Source: a virus
DNA: 33,298 nt
Direction: 5' to 3' (one strand)
IMG/VR virus record: IMGVR_UViG_3300044641_001504
Location: 1 to 33,298 of that record
Below the pieces are notes generated by a model. It was not told the origin of the DNA. It saw nothing but the letters and a program-made list of their open reading frames with translations, and did no database searches. Made by a program: the position numbers and the translations under genes. Positions 8,743-24,828 of the stretch are shown here, piece by piece; the stretch's first letter is position 1, and every line of letters begins with the position of its first letter.

Positions 8743-10270
8743 AATACAACTCCTGATTTGTTTCACTGTGATCATGTAATGGTATCATAGTCAAAAACAG
8801 AGACGCTGTCAAGAACAAAGTGATCCGCCAAGTCTTTTCACCATACTTATCAATGAATAGAGTCTTATATGCGTTCCTGGCTGCTTCTTTGCCAGCATCG
8901 AAGTAGATAGTCTTGCCATCTTTATTTAGATAAAGCTCCGCATCCACATAATCATATGGATAATAGGCTGAATGAGTAATCTTGGCTAAGTCGTATAGGA
9001 TATTACCATAGGCTTCACCACGAGGATCAATCAGCTTGATTTGCTTGCTGCCGGGATGATAAAAGATGTTCGAGAAGCATAGATCACCGTGAAACAAAGA
9101 ATCTTGGAAAACATCAAACTCACCGTCGGCGGTCATATTAGCAAACTTCGACAGAAATTCTGAATCAAATTCTGAATCATCTTCATACGCGAACTTATGA
9201 CTAATCGTAATGTATCTTTCGTAGTTCTTAGTCGCTACATTATGAAAGAACTGAGGCTTGCCTGGCTTGAAGTAGAACTTGAATTTATCAGTCAGTTTGA
9301 ATAACTTCGTGTAGATTTCAGCCCAGAAGATAGGATCTGATTCGAGATATAGATACAGCTCGCGAAGAGTCGGACTATCGACACGTTCCATTGTGTATGT
9401 CGGACGATCACCATACAAGTTCTTATCCAGGATGCGAGGCGTCATCACCTTAATTGAAGTCGGAAGATTATCATACCAATTAGCTTCAGCATGAATCTTG
9501 CTGGGTTGTACGATAGACGTCTTCGTGATCGTAGCACCATCGCTGGATGGAAACAATTGATTGAACGATCGAGAATTACTTACGCCACGATTCTCAAGAT
9601 ACTCTTGCAACGTACCAAAGTCAACGATCTTCACTGACTTAGAGTAGATCGATTCTTTTTTCATATAGCGAGTCATTGCAGAAGATATCTGAACTTCTCC
9701 TTCGCTTGTGCTATGAATTGCGTAAATCATACAATTACGGAATTGATAGCCATCAGCGAAATAATAAACTCCGCTAACAGCAGTATCTGTTGCTGGCATA
9801 TCTCGTGGTTTGTCGTGAAATTTAACTACAGCTCCTGCGTTGAGTTCAGCCATACACCAACGTTCCCAATCAGAAACTTTTTGTGTAGAAATCCAAGAAG
9901 TACGAGAATCTGTAAACGGCGCATGATTCACAACGATATCACTGAGAAGAATCAATACAGGTTCTTCTCCGATGTCTTCCGGAAGACCGCAATAGATGGA
10001 AACGCCAGGACCACCTTTTCCTTCAGCTTCAGTGTATTCCGCAAAGCGAACTCGCGAGTCGTCGGGAAAATACATTCCGACGATCTCGCGAATCTTATTT
10101 GCTTGATGTCCAACAACGATACATACTTCACGAGCACCGCTATCAAATGCGAGTCTAATGTTATGTACGATGATAGGAATATCCTGATACGGCAAAACGC
10201 ACTTCGGATAGTTCTTACCTAGTTCATTGAAACGAACACCACGCCCAGCGGCAGGAATCACACAATACAT
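8699..10270 (-). CDS. Nucleotidyltransferase-kinase fusion protein
   Basis: A 523-residue two-domain protein. Residues 1-230 form a sugar- or choline-phosphate nucleotidyltransferase: PAAGRGVRF at 6-14, YPKCVLP at 21-27 and LSDIVV at 109-114. Residues about 250-523 resemble the aminoglycoside/choline kinase fold, with HGDLCFSN at 394-401 and IDPRG at 414-418, the catalytic and metal-binding motifs. Such a fusion could phosphorylate a small substrate and then activate it as an NDP derivative. The ATG at 10270 is chosen because the PAAGRG fold must begin there and AAGGG precedes it; an upstream in-frame extension lies inside the TET-like gene. It follows that gene by 13 bases. Substrate unknown. 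Confidence 0.85.
   Translation of the reverse strand: MYCVIPAAGRGVRFNELGKNYPKCVLPYQDIPIIVHNIRLAFDSGAREVCIVVGHQANKIREIVGMYFPDDSRVRFAEYTEAEGKGGPGVSIYCGLPEDIGEEPVLILLSDIVVNHAPFTDSRTSWISTQKVSDWERWCMAELNAGAVVKFHDKPRDMPATDTAVSGVYYFADGYQFRNCMIYAIHSTSEGEVQISSAMTRYMKKESIYSKSVKIVDFGTLQEYLENRGVSNSRSFNQLFPSSDGATITKTSIVQPSKIHAEANWYDNLPTSIKVMTPRILDKNLYGDRPTYTMERVDSPTLRELYLYLESDPIFWAEIYTKLFKLTDKFKFYFKPGKPQFFHNVATKNYERYITISHKFAYEDDSEFDSEFLSKFANMTADGEFDVFQDSLFHGDLCFSNIFYHPGSKQIKLIDPRGEAYGNILYDLAKITHSAYYPYDYVDAELYLNKDGKTIYFDAGKEAARNAYKTLFIDKYGEKTWRITLFLTASLFLTMIPLHDHSETNQELYYALYRQARSDSGLV
8784..8812 (-). promoter_or_regulatory. Sigma-70-type internal promoter
   Basis: TTGACA (8812-8807), 17 bases, TATGAT (8789-8784) on the minus strand. 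It lies inside the 3' end of the nucleotidyltransferase-kinase gene and would give extra expression of the HAD and glycosyltransferase genes. Confidence 0.8.
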
Positions 10271-20067: not shown

Positions 20068-20661
20068 TTAACTCATTTCTACCCAACCGGTCATGATATA
20101 CTTAGTGTTGCTGATCGGAGGATTGCCGCGATGGGTGTGAGTGTATCCGGCTGGCCACAAGATCAATCGTCCCTCTTTAGACTTAACGCGACGAGAATAG
20201 TATAGGAATTCAGATTCTCCGCCTTCATCAACATCGTTGAGATAGAGAATAAATGTCATCATTCTACGCATGTTAGTCGGACTATCATCTTCGCAATGCC
20301 ATTGATGATATCCACCACCAATCTCAGTTTTTTGCAGTTTAAGCAAACGAATTGTATGATGACTTAGCGTGGTTAGGATACTGAACTTATCAGAGTAGAT
20401 TGGGTATATTATATCCCAGAATTTTCTATTGAATTCATAACAAGGCTCCATGTCAGAAACGTCCATCTCGGTGCGCGAAAGTATCGATGACCAATACAAC
20501 TGATCATCAGATTTTTCGTGCTTCTTGTTTCCTTGTGCTTGCCTATTAACAGTAAATCCATTTTTCTCAAATCTATTAAAGCAATCAATAGTCCTGCGAC
20601 ATTCTTCTGAAGAAAAGAAATTGTCATAGGTCATTACGAAATCGTCTATTGTATAACTCAT
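20068..20661 (-). CDS. 2OG-Fe(II) oxygenase, prolyl-hydroxylase type
   Basis: A 197-residue protein with the double-stranded beta-helix core of prolyl 4-hydroxylases. The iron-binding segment reads WHCED, that is H122-x-E124 rather than the usual HxD. The strand pair MTFILYLNDVDEGGESEF is intact. The distal His is 175 or 177 in THTHRG, and K187 can bind 2-oxoglutarate. Such short oxygenases abound in T4-like phages; the substrates are unknown. It starts inside the overlap with the DUF458-type gene (ATG at the upstream stop). Confidence 0.85.
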   Translation of the reverse strand: MSYTIDDFVMTYDNFFSSEECRRTIDCFNRFEKNGFTVNRQAQGNKKHEKSDDQLYWSSILSRTEMDVSDMEPCYEFNRKFWDIIYPIYSDKFSILTTLSHHTIRLLKLQKTEIGGGYHQWHCEDDSPTNMRRMMTFILYLNDVDEGGESEFLYYSRRVKSKEGRLILWPAGYTHTHRGNPPISNTKYIMTGWVEMS

Positions 20662-21131
20662 GATGCTAATAGCTCCTTCATTCTGTCGGCTGCATAACTT
20701 GCAGCAAATGCTTTTGGTTTAATCATAGGAGTAACATTGCATGTTCCGCGAATGTAGCCAACCGCTTGCTGAACAACACAAGAACTTCCGTGAACTATAT
20801 TTGGATTGATATCTAGATGTACTTCTGCGTGACGATCGCCAATAGATTCTGCGAGATCCATATAAAGCTGTGCAGCCTTATACACTTCGTTCATTAGCCT
20901 ATATGCTGGGCGATCCTTACGCTGATCGTAATCGCGCTCTCTGGATACGGATCCAAAAACTTTGCATCCACGAGACCCGTCATAGTGTACCACGACGGCG
21001 AGAGTGTAGTCTGCATACCAAAGTTCATCTTTACCTCTATAGCGTTCAGAATCTGCACCAATGTAAACACAAGTTGTTTCAGAGCAATTCATAATAAACT
21101 CGCGCACTTCATCAAGATCCATATTGTTCAT
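20658..21131 (-). CDS. DUF458 / YkuK-type RNase H-fold protein
   Basis: A 157-residue protein with YIGADSERY (first acidic strand), YTLAVVVHYDGSRGCKVFG, EVHLDINPN and then GSSCVVQQAVGYIRG. These match the DUF458/YkuK family, which has an RNase H-like fold. The acidic residues in GADSE and HLDINP correspond to the likely metal site. It may be a nuclease acting in replication or repair, though no substrate has been shown. A second ATG (21122) is possible. Confidence 0.82.
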   Translation of the reverse strand: MNNMDLDEVREFIMNCSETTCVYIGADSERYRGKDELWYADYTLAVVVHYDGSRGCKVFGSVSRERDYDQRKDRPAYRLMNEVYKAAQLYMDLAESIGDRHAEVHLDINPNIVHGSSCVVQQAVGYIRGTCNVTPMIKPKAFAASYAADRMKELLAS

Positions 21132-21852: not shown

Positions 21853-21928
21853 TGGTGCCCACGGTCGGACTCGAACCGACACTGTGGAGATTTTAAGTCT
21901 CCTGCCTCTGCCATTGGGCTACGAGGGC
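21853..21928 (-). tRNA. tRNA-Leu(UAA), short variable arm
   Basis: 76 bases with encoded CCA. Acceptor GCCCTCG pairs with CGTGGGC apart from one T-T mismatch. The anticodon loop CTTAAAA gives anticodon UAA, and the T arm is GTCGGTTCGAGTCCGAC. The variable region is only five bases, although leucine tRNAs normally have a long variable arm. Identity is assigned from the anticodon alone. Confidence 0.88.
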
Positions 21929-21931
21929 GAT

Positions 21932-22024
21932 TGGTGGAAGAGGTAGGATTCGAACCCACGGTACGCTACTAACGCACGCTTGTTTTCAAGACAAGTACAA
22001 TAAACCGGACTCTGTCACTCTTCC
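21932..22024 (-). tRNA. tRNA-Ser(UGA)
   Basis: 93 bases, class II, with encoded CCA. Acceptor GGAAGAG pairs with CTCTTCC. The anticodon stem ACTTGT/ACAAGC encloses loop CTTGAAA (anticodon UGA). A long variable arm (GCGTTAGTAGCG region) is present, as serine tRNAs require. The T loop TTCGAAT is canonical. Confidence 0.95.
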
Positions 22025-22029
22025 TAATA

Positions 22030-22190
22030 ATTGCCGATGTTGGTGTTCAGCCAACTTCCCTGCTGCTCGGCCACAGCGCCCTCGGTCCATGCGAGGCTGC
22101 ATTGGTTAGATGCAACCCGGAGGCGTGGGTAACTCGGAGCATATGAGTAACCATTCTCACACGCCTGATCCAACTGTTAGTCCCACGGCG
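22030..22190 (-). ncRNA. Unassigned structured segment in the tRNA cluster
   Basis: No convincing gene here. On the minus strand there is a nested arm (GGCGTG/CACGCC, 22165-22122, enclosing an 8-bp near-perfect stem with loop ATATGCTCC). A perfect 8-bp hairpin follows with loop CTAACCA (22117-22095), then a 5-bp hairpin with anticodon-like loop CTGAACA (22055-22039). The last resembles a tRNA anticodon arm (GAA), but no T arm or acceptor follows before tRNA-Ser. It could be a stable small RNA, like the small RNAs in the T4 tRNA cluster, or a decayed tRNA. Confidence 0.4.
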
Positions 22191-22195
22191 CACTC

Positions 22196-22315
22196 TTAAT
22201 TATCTTCAGACCTATTGTATTGTTTGCGCCACAACCACGAACTAAAGTCAAGCGTAGCACCTTCTAACCAACTGATCAACCAACTGTTCCATAACCAATG
22301 ATCATATCTGTTCAT
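22196..22315 (-). CDS. Small Trp-rich protein, 39 aa
   Basis: A 39-codon gene MNRYDHWLWNSWLISWLEGA followed by SSWLWRKQYNRSEDN. AGGA lies eight bases before the ATG. Six tryptophans and an amphipathic pattern suggest membrane association. The SSWLWRKQY end recalls a small protein in T4-like marine phages. It sits between the structured segment and tRNA-Trp. Confidence 0.62.
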   Translation of the reverse strand: MNRYDHWLWNSWLISWLEGATLDFSSWLWRKQYNRSEDN

Positions 22316-22334: not shown

Positions 22335-22408
22335 TGGCACCAGATGAGAGAGTCGAACTCTCGCCTGCGGTTTTGGAGACCGCCGTGCTACCGTAACACT
22401 TATCTGAT
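22335..22408 (-). tRNA. tRNA-Trp(CCA)
   Basis: 74 bases. Acceptor ATCAGAT pairs with ATCTGGT (one T-G pair), discriminator G as is usual for Trp, encoded CCA end. The anticodon stem GCGGT/ACCGC encloses CTCCAAA (anticodon CCA). The T loop is TTCGACT. A phage tRNA-Trp is not common. Confidence 0.9.
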
Positions 22409-22413
22409 AATCT

Positions 22414-22896
22414 TTACTTATTGTCTAATCGATATTCTAGAATCGCAATTTTCTTGTCTAACTCACCAAACAACTTTTGCACTTCCATTCTGATAGCGGC
22501 TCTGGCATTAGCGGCATCAGCTGTCATATCAAGAGCCGTCTTCTGGTTCATAGCTAAACTCTTTTCACGATCCAATGTCATAGCTGCACGGGCAAGTGCA
22601 GAATCTCTTTCAACTTTTCCAATTTGATCGCTCAAACTTTCTCTGATCTGAGCCATGTCAATCGTAGTACCTTGAGGAGGTATTGCTTTGTTATCGGAGT
22701 TGACGACAATAGCAATTTTTGATTTTAGACTAATGATCTCGTTCTTCGAATCGCTCAAAGCTGACATCAAGTACACTACACAGGAAAAGAGAATTGGTAT
22801 ACCAGCAAATACTAGCTTCTCAACCAATCCACTCTTCCCAGAACTTGCTGCCATCTGTTCAGATAGTTGTGTCAATTTTTTATCTTCTTCAGCCAT
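22414..22896 (-). CDS. Membrane-anchored coiled-coil protein, holin-like
   Basis: A 160-residue protein. A short polar N-terminus leads to one hydrophobic helix at about residues 24-46 (LVEKLVFAGIPILFSCVVYLMS). A conserved VVNSDNKAIPPQGTT segment follows, then a long Ala/Lys/Glu coiled coil to the end. This layout fits the DUF7201-type or holin-like phage proteins I recall. Lysis involvement is possible but unproven. GGAG precedes the ATG. Confidence 0.68.
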   Translation of the reverse strand: MAEEDKKLTQLSEQMAASSGKSGLVEKLVFAGIPILFSCVVYLMSALSDSKNEIISLKSKIAIVVNSDNKAIPPQGTTIDMAQIRESLSDQIGKVERDSALARAAMTLDREKSLAMNQKTALDMTADAANARAAIRMEVQKLFGELDKKIAILEYRLDNK

Positions 22897-22954
22897 TTAA
22901 TTTCTCCATGTTTATCAGTTTATGTAAGCATGAAGAAAAGATCAATTCAGTCGC

Positions 22955-24267: not shown

Positions 24268-24288
24268 ATACATTTCCTAATCTGCTGG

Positions 24289-24393
24289 TTACTGCCATCC
24301 AGCGTCACCTTTTCGCGTGACAGATTCTTGGGAGAAGACGGATGAATCAAGACGAACTCCAGTCGTCGCCTGACTATATCCAGCAATAAACAT
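24289..24393 (-). CDS. Doubtful small ORF, 34 aa
   Basis: A 34-codon frame (MFIAGYSQATTGVRLDSSVF to QESVTRKGDAGWQ) in the otherwise geneless stretch before the oxygenase. The ribosome site is poor. The composition looks protein-like, but a second frame is also open here. It may be a fragment of a once longer gene. Confidence 0.3.
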   Translation of the reverse strand: MFIAGYSQATTGVRLDSSVFSQESVTRKGDAGWQ

Positions 24394-24416
24394 TCATCCA
24401 ATTCACTGCTAGTGTT

Positions 24417-24563
24417 CTACGGATCCCGTCCCGTAGAATAGACATCTTTATTTATTATGTGGCAGGTGAGGTATCCGTCCAACGGTTCAAAATGTTTCTG
24501 GACTTCCCATTCTCCTTTTATCGGATGATCAAACCGACCCTCAGTGACACAACTAGTATACAT
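24417..24563 (-). CDS. Doubtful small ORF, 48 aa
   Basis: A 48-codon frame, MYTSCVTEGRFDHPIKGEWE to VYSTGRDP, between tRNA-Thr and the oxygenase block. It has a natural-looking composition but a weak ribosome site. Its end overlaps an 8-bp hairpin (TTCTACGG/CCGTAGAA, 24415-24438). No family recognised. Confidence 0.38.
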   Translation of the reverse strand: MYTSCVTEGRFDHPIKGEWEVQKHFEPLDGYLTCHIINKDVYSTGRDP

Positions 24564-24668: not shown

Positions 24669-24673
24669 AAAAT

Positions 24674-24769
24674 TGGAGGTCCGTTAGCTGATAGATCCCC
24701 GAATTAAAGGTTGGAACCAATAACCCCAGATCATCTTGAACCCCGAAGACTTATTAATCGCGACGGACC
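24674..24769 (-). other. tRNA-sized inverted repeat ending in CCA
   Basis: On the minus strand GGTCCGT (24769-24763) and ACGGACC (24684-24678) form a perfect 7-bp stem, with TCCA directly after, as in a tRNA acceptor. The 78 bases between hold a GGTT/AACC hairpin with loop containing TTGGTTC but no T arm. It may be a decayed tRNA-Thr(GGU) or another small RNA. Confidence 0.35.
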
Positions 24770-24828
24770 AAGCGCGATAGAAAGCTAACCATGACTCTCT
24801 TCGGATCTATTTCGCGATCACCCGTTTT

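Follow-up and report, generated by a model that had tools for sequence, protein, structure and literature searches.

The noncoding segment lies within a tRNA cluster

The DNA analysed here is a virus record of 33,298 bases (referred to throughout as the window), which probably derives from a T4-like phage judging by its RNase H homologue. Among the matches listed, this protein shares 54% identity with its counterpart in Methylophilales phage Melnitz and 48-52% with cyanophage homologues. On the minus strand, a tRNA-Trp gene is followed by a 39-codon ORF, a noncoding segment, tRNA-Ser(UGA), and tRNA-Leu (Table 1). An initial annotation, made from the letters of the window, had described the segment as a structured, GC-rich stretch within a tRNA cluster that lacks a good reading frame, and these points were borne out in part: the location, the GC content and the lack of a convincing gene hold, the hairpins hold only partly, and the structure is more intricate than was described (see below). 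The three flanking tRNA genes place the segment inside the cluster. Its GC content is 0.561 compared to 0.422 for the whole window, and GC content at least as high as that of the segment was found in 308 of 33,128 sliding 170-base windows, 297 of which lie elsewhere; nearly all of these fall within the final 1.6 kb. ORFs in the segment reach 49 codons, but four small frames (three in or overlapping the segment, and the upstream 39-codon ORF) had no match in PHROGs or Pfam, and the 50-residue frame of the segment had no tblastn match in phages. A degenerate pattern for the motif WLWNSWLISW of the 39-codon ORF matched two near-identical contigs only.

Table 1. Features of the locus and helices of the RNA, in window coordinates.
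Feature	Position	Strand	Remarks
tRNA-Leu	21853-21928	-	Same tRNA cluster
tRNA-Ser(UGA)	21932-22024	-	5 bases separate the 3' end of the model match from this tRNA
Whole noncoding segment	22025-22195	-	Between the stop codon of the 39-codon ORF and the first base of tRNA-Ser
Model match of the RNA	22030-22194	-	R1 151.6 bits, R2 137.6 bits, alignment A7 (scores of a training member)
39-codon ORF	22196-22315	-	Between tRNA-Trp and the RNA; AAGGA motif upstream
tRNA-Trp(CCA)	22335-22408	-	Next tRNA upstream of the RNA
P2a 5' strand	22182-22187	-	Pairs with 22124-22129; two-sided changes at 5/6 pairs in 21 sequences
P2a 3' strand	22124-22129	-	Covariation in 21 sequences
P2b 5' strand	22176-22179	-	Pairs with 22130-22133
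P2b 3' strand	22130-22133	-	Partner of 22176-22179
Possible P2c 5' strand	22170-22173	-	Pairs with 22134-22137; weakly supported
Possible P2c 3' strand	22134-22137	-	Partner of 22170-22173; weakly supported
P3 hairpin	22142-22161	-	Stem 22156-22161 with 22142-22147, loop 22148-22155
P3 loop segment UGGUUA (kissing)	22148-22153	-	Pairs with 22103-22108
P4 hairpin	22095-22117	-	Stem 22110-22117 with 22095-22102, loop CUAACCA 22103-22109
P4 loop segment UAACCA (kissing)	22103-22108	-	Pairs with 22148-22153
P5 5' strand CCUC	22120-22123	-	Pairs with 22080-22083
P5 3' strand GAGG	22080-22083	-	Pairs with 22120-22123
S1 5' strand GCUGU (3' pseudoknot)	22073-22077	-	Predicted pairing with 22062-22066
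S1 3' strand GCAGC	22062-22066	-	Predicted pairing; directly follows S2, located by means of the S2 coordinates and the sequence of the member
S2 5' strand GCCGA	22067-22071	-	Pairs with 22033-22037
S2 3' strand UCGGC	22033-22037	-	Pairs with 22067-22071
P7 hairpin inside S2	22039-22055	-	Stem 22051-22055 with 22039-22043; two-sided changes at 4/4 modelled pairs

A family of homologous RNAs in phages

Two near-identical contigs carry the same locus: L162/L002 is 100% identical to the window, while L161/L082 differs from it by one base within the segment (22129), a difference that changes a G-C pair of helix P2a to G-U. BLAST searches of named phages with the segment returned only short chance matches or tRNA matches among the matches listed, as did searches with five other family members or their flanks. 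The near-identical contigs aside, no copy was detected by BLAST in relatives of the neighbouring 160-aa and 152-aa proteins (best 80 each). Matches of 22 bases in L110 and L126, which lie in apparent coding sequence, were rejected. A pattern for the loop GTTGGCTGAACACCAAC found six stretches, two of them in near-identical contigs and four attributed to chance.

More distant homologues were reached by other routes. The RNaseH-like protein at 20658-21131 retrieved graded relatives as a query, and a search with the core of the segment yielded a 32-base match (E 1.3e-4) in one of them, L173 (from a contig of 157,580 bases), where it extends to a full-length homologue located directly after tRNA-Met. 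A first DNA pattern, based on the conserved 3' core of the L173 homologue, found 30 stretches, ten of which are homologues by context. A covariance model built from seven members (R1) recovered three more distant members at 57-64 bits; the loci of the other 20 stretches scored at most 21.0 bits. A second pattern returned ten stretches with a single new one (L270), which was rejected at 9.0 bits with R1. The third pattern was relaxed so that the S2 strand was no longer fixed and found 95 stretches, and R1 identified 16 more members among 69 new loci. All 19 members added via R1 (16 and 3) scored at least 35.6 bits with that model. A second covariance model (R2), built from 21 members, was applied to 13 further new loci from the third pattern and identified five more members, two of which (L407 and L398) repeat sequences in its training set (those of L331 and L372). 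The three sequences that are in neither model (L397, L400, and L403) scored 65.9-86.2 bits with R2. Other loci carrying a search core scored at most 21.0 bits with R1 and 20.8 bits with R2. The window sequence is part of both training sets, and its scores in Table 1 are to be read as those of a training member.

In total, 31 copies of the family were found on 31 contigs, with 24 distinct sequences that form 16 clusters at 85% identity and a lowest pairwise identity of 45%. L162, whose sequence is that of the window, and the repeat loci of one contig (L002, L082, L245, and L307-L315) were left out before counting. The carriers are a number of phages, mostly environmental, although the IMG numbers of contigs L372, L374, L398, and L400 point to isolate genomes. 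R1 had no matches in 48 related virus records (50 were searched, the members' own records aside), and its one match in 27 other records (34 searched, members aside) was the rejected L270 locus. No copy was found with R1 in 12 named phages, and R2 with strict filters found none that is convincing in 20 named phages, with a positive control run alongside (one 9.7-bit fragment was returned). From approximately 126 bases downstream of the RNA, the L372 lineage shares 181 bases with Bradyrhizobium phage BDU-MI-1 at 96.7% identity, yet the search of that phage gave no full family member. The patterns also matched 36 stretches in genomes of bacteria and archaea, none of which was confirmed (at most 16.7 bits with R1 and 17.7 bits with R2).

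The RNA is usually placed directly beside tRNA genes

The model match ends 3-6 bases before a tRNA gene in 22 of the 31 copies (19/26 and 3/5) and starts 0-11 bases after one in 19 of them (17/26 and 2/5). Counting either side, 26 copies have a tRNA gene no more than 11 bases away. In L331, for example, tRNA-Ala ends at 9382, the RNA spans 9383-9547, and tRNA-Glu begins at 9554. The identity of the downstream tRNA varies by lineage (Ser(UGA), Val, Ala, Pro, Glu, or Met). Nine copies lack a tRNA in the 6 bases that follow them, and in five (L372, L374, L391, L386, and L398) the nearest tRNA is more than 11 bases away in both directions; these five are preceded by a CACC or CACT end for which ARAGORN makes no tRNA call. 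Nine member records were searched whole, and each contains a single copy of the RNA, even though arrays reach about 24 tRNAs. In L171 and L172, which are 89% identical in the RNaseH-like protein, the gap between tRNA-Trp and tRNA-Ser is 14 bases and the RNA is absent from it. Its absence there from close relatives suggests that the RNA is gained or lost as a unit.

Other elements in the neighbourhood

A second conserved noncoding element is located on the minus strand of the window at approximately 24284-24440, between tRNA-Thr and an ORF that starts at 24273, with the core CACGCGAAAAGGTGACGCTGGATGGCAGTAACCAGC. Homologues of this element were found in L173 (2173-2354), L267 (13292-13449), L247, L252, and L244; each of these contigs has a copy of the main RNA as well. 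It had no Rfam match at gathering (window and L173), and RNAalifold predicts 21 pairs, eight of them with two-sided changes. A 160-base gap between tRNA-Thr and tRNA-Val (24669-24828) is 81.7% identical to its counterpart in L161, with substitutions and 26 extra bases in L161, which makes it far more variable than its surroundings; a stretch of 44-48 bases from it recurs in L172, L175, and L403. The region of the 160-aa ORF (22414-22954) is absent from the near-identical contig L161 and is therefore a recent insertion or loss. Relatives of the 160-aa protein are very common in viral contigs (at least 596 of 599 pattern stretches). The RNaseH-like protein (PF04308, 20658-21131) has relatives in five named phages that adjoin tRNA or tRNA-processing genes.

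Covariation supports a conserved fold

Comparison of the family members gives a fold with four main parts: an arm formed by P2 and P3, a P4 hairpin whose loop pairs with the loop of P3 (a kissing contact), a helix (P5) that closes the P4 domain, and a helix (S2) that encloses the P7 hairpin. The 3' part is probably an H-type pseudoknot, which we model as S1 and S2 arranged around P7. In the first seven sequences, 96.7% of cells at 43 pairs (pseudoknots included) can pair compared to 83.1% in shuffles, and the covariation score is 0.482 compared to 0.200, with none of 500 shuffles as high and slid controls at 0.122 or below. With 21 sequences and 26 nested pairs, 96.5% of cells pair (68.2 +- 1.3 in shuffles), there are 153 two-sided changes (45.9 in shuffles), and the covariation score rises to 0.769 (0.210 in shuffles, 0/500 as high; slid controls 0.096 or below). 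Covariation across related phages, measured by pair counting rather than R-scape, is strongly positive.

Compensatory changes across these 21 sequences maintain P2a, P4, P5, S2, and P7, with two-sided changes at 7/7 pairs in P4, 5/6 in P2a, 3/5 in S2, 4/4 in P7, and 2/4 in P5. The letters of S2 change by lineage from RCCGA/UCGGY to GUCGA/UCGAC, GAGGA/UCCUC, or AUCGA/UCGAU. P2b and P3 are not alignable across groups and were assigned by hand (no P2b for L331, and no P3 for L331 or L353); they pair fully in 13 and 12 members, respectively, near-copies being unlisted in these counts. The possible P2c has 89.3% of cells paired and covariation that was equalled by 147 of 500 shuffles. S1 (GCUGU/GCAGC) is invariant in the members, but every search pattern for the wider family demanded its letters, so we consider this pairing plausible only.

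Checks outside the models matter because the structure was read from the same sequences (alignment A4) and the model guided the fitting of the larger alignments, A6 and A7. L397, L400, and L403, which are in neither model, each have 5/5 pairs in the kissing contact, 5/5 in S2, and 6/6 in P2a (segments picked by hand), and S2 of L397 is a new version, AUCGA/UCGAU.

The kissing contact between P3 and P4 is absent from both covariance models and its segments were assigned by hand. Over 16 rows (the 21 sequences minus five near-copies), 77 of 80 positions pair, compared to 53.8 +- 4.7 when the segments are re-dealt (0/20,000 as high). Among the eight distinct segment pairs, 37 of 40 positions pair and 11 of 20,000 shuffles were as high. 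Different lineages use different letters, with UGGUU x AACCA in the window, UGGUC x GACCG in L256, UAGUC x GACUG in L247 and L353, and UGACU x AGUCA in L394; the two sides are exchanged in L372, L391, and L386 (GACCA x UGGUC). A looser test in which the loops may slide found about equal complementarity across groups, so the specificity of the contact is drawn from the fixed-register test. From these comparisons, we take the complementarity of the P3 and P4 loops to be a kept feature of the RNA family.

Of the hairpins that can be seen by eye in the segment, two are conserved helices of the family: GGUUGCAU(CUAACCA)AUGCAGCC is P4, perhaps the arm that had been called anticodon-like, and GUUGG(CUGAACA)CCAAC is P7. 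A third, CUCG(CAUGGAC)CGAG, is not a family helix, as its GAGG is assigned by comparison to the upstream CCUC instead (P5). The folding energy of the segment is ordinary for its composition (-60.7 kcal/mol, z -1.12), with 28 of 200 shuffles folding equally well and 22 of 1,657 minus-strand windows folding at least as well, one of which overlaps the segment. Single-sequence folding (z -1.1) would have missed the structure, and RNAalifold on a mixed alignment recovered only part of the fold. For the window member, the nested helices of the family (with P2c) have an energy of -39.4 kcal/mol, kissing and S1 pairs uncounted, compared to -60.7 kcal/mol for the minimum free energy structure; thermodynamics of the single sequence thus favours another fold, and a competing fold is predicted. 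The stable RNAs of T4 have fold z-scores of -0.83 (rnaD) and -4.57 (rnaC), and Rfam likewise gives no match at gathering for either of them, so a weak z-score and the lack of an Rfam match decide little.

Interpretation of the conserved RNA

The comparisons above show that the family exists, where its members are placed, and most of how they fold. We consider it very probable that the minus strand at 22030-22194 encodes a structured noncoding RNA of approximately 165 bases, belonging to a phage family usually found beside or between tRNAs, which would be processed like a tRNA and act in trans. Placement and the general course of tRNA maturation suggest that the RNA would be co-transcribed with the tRNAs. 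Processing of the upstream tRNA at its 3' end would then create the 5' end of the RNA, and RNase P, in cutting the downstream tRNA free, would create the 3' end. It may then act in trans as a stable RNA or an RNA-protein particle. Conservation points to the S1/S2 strand (GGGCGCUGU...AGCAGCAGG) as a putative binding or active surface. The letters of the scaffold vary while those of the S1 strands are kept, which makes the 3' pseudoknot the likely working surface, with the caveat that the search patterns bias this contrast. The likeliest target, and this is a guess, would be the machinery of translation or of the tRNAs, with tRNA-cutting host defences counted in. A fuller version, which we offer tentatively and to which we give somewhat less than an even chance, is that the RNA represents a new phage RNA class, matured like an extra tRNA, whose 3' pseudoknot acts on host translation or tRNA machinery as a ribozyme, as a ligand of the ribosome or of tRNA enzymes, or as an anti-defence decoy.

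Several other explanations were weighed. The initial annotation had allowed for a decayed tRNA, and such a relic, like a tRNA that was rearranged or fused from pieces, would account for the position in a tRNA array, the 7-base hairpin loops, and the fit of tRNA-Val(AAC) to 22069-22139 in the mitochondrial mode of ARAGORN. The relaxed ARAGORN modes disagree with each other, though, the segment has no match to the tRNA model at E up to 10, and a single fold that is not a cloverleaf is kept by compensatory change; we regard this explanation as refuted and its probability as very small. GC-rich filler DNA with chance hairpins would agree with a fold z-score of just -1.12, but it is hard to reconcile with homologues in 16 clusters that covary, which in our view refutes it and leaves it a negligible chance. 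It is likewise highly improbable that the segment encodes a small protein: an open frame of 50 codons does run along the minus strand (22027-22176) and ends at the tRNA-Ser boundary, but it matches nothing in phages, PHROGs, or Pfam, sequence changes track base pairs, and the lengths of the members differ by indels.

Two further alternatives concern what the RNA does. It could work in cis, as a processing or regulatory element within the tRNA transcript (such as a self-cleaving ribozyme or a structure that stabilises the array RNA), rather than as a free RNA. The presence of a tRNA within 11 bases in 26/31 copies would fit such a role, as would the clustering of conserved letters in the 3' pseudoknot, a pattern also seen in ribozymes and partly imposed here by the search patterns. 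Against this, each of the nine whole member records has a single copy despite arrays of up to about 24 tRNAs, the adjoining tRNAs differ by lineage, and no Rfam ribozyme matches at gathering. We prefer a trans-acting RNA, as there is one copy per array beside tRNAs that vary, and think a cis-acting role unlikely. The RNA could also counter a host defence directed at tRNAs or translation, as a decoy or an antagonist. Phage RNAs that mimic type III antitoxins are known, and presence or absence among close relatives (L171 and L172 lack the RNA) is what would be expected of a cassette that faces host defences. The argument is made purely by analogy, and we consider this role rather unlikely.

Comparison with known RNAs

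The initial annotation had likened the segment to the small stable RNAs of T4, or to a similar or new small RNA. The latter suggestion is supported by the covarying family and by the Rfam results. An Infernal search of ten members against Rfam 15 (including GOLLD, ROOL, HEARO, and skipping-rope) found no family at gathering over any of them, which is consistent with a new RNA; matches were considered at E up to 10 for the window, L254, L256, and L267, at E up to 0.5 for L333, L353, L386, L391, and L394, and at gathering for L173. The tRNA covariance model (RF00005) and ARAGORN match only the flanking tRNAs. No tmRNA was found by ARAGORN in the window; a plus-strand fit at the 50% threshold overruns the submitted piece and was judged to be spurious. 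An Rfam sX4 match overlaps tRNA-Ser and was discounted. Below gathering, L267 has three antisense matches, the best being Ms_AS-5 with 20.7 of 46 bits. The best sense-strand match is a weak one of L254 to IMES-4 (RF02037; 18.5 bits and E 0.57, with gathering at 48 bits), a family that is unlisted for the window, L256, and L267.

The likeness to T4 holds for position and fails for homology. Species 1 and 2 of T4 (rnaC and rnaD), with 139 and 119 bases, lie in the T4 tRNA cluster, and both resemble the new RNA in being unmatched by Rfam at gathering. T4 rnaC has a standard tRNA T-arm whereas the new RNA does not, and searches of the complete T4 genome with R1 and R2 (E up to 1, strict filters) gave no match.

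Other structured RNAs come from the same setting. GOLLD and ROOL are described as structured RNAs that phages and prophages carry, in many cases close to tRNA islands, and that have no assigned function (PMC12286853). According to the same source, many GOLLD members are longer than 800 nt, compared to approximately 165 nt for the new RNA, and the structure of ROOL is highly complex, with multiple pseudoknots. The window member matched neither model at E up to 10. Skipping-rope RNA (RF02924) is pseudoknotted and counted among phage noncoding RNAs (PMC7779021, PMC8501573). It adjoins the new RNA in two members, beginning 2 bases downstream of it in L386 (4796-4904, minus strand) and L391 (2184-2302, plus strand), where the Rfam model matches the adjoining segment and not the new RNA. 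The non-tRNA noncoding RNAs reported for S-CREM1 are abiF, wcaG, manA, and glnA (PMC9964418). We found no description of the new RNA in the open-licence literature searched. Structured RNA in phage tRNA islands is a known kind, and the family appears to be new within Rfam 15 and that literature.

The reason for the large tRNA arrays of some phages is still debated. A conserved, structured RNA that is placed like an extra tRNA offers a new handle on this question, and the family is defined well enough for searching, probing, and deletion. To the RNAs of tRNA islands, namely GOLLD, ROOL, species 1 and 2 of T4, and skipping-rope, it adds a family with tertiary contacts that are backed by covariation.
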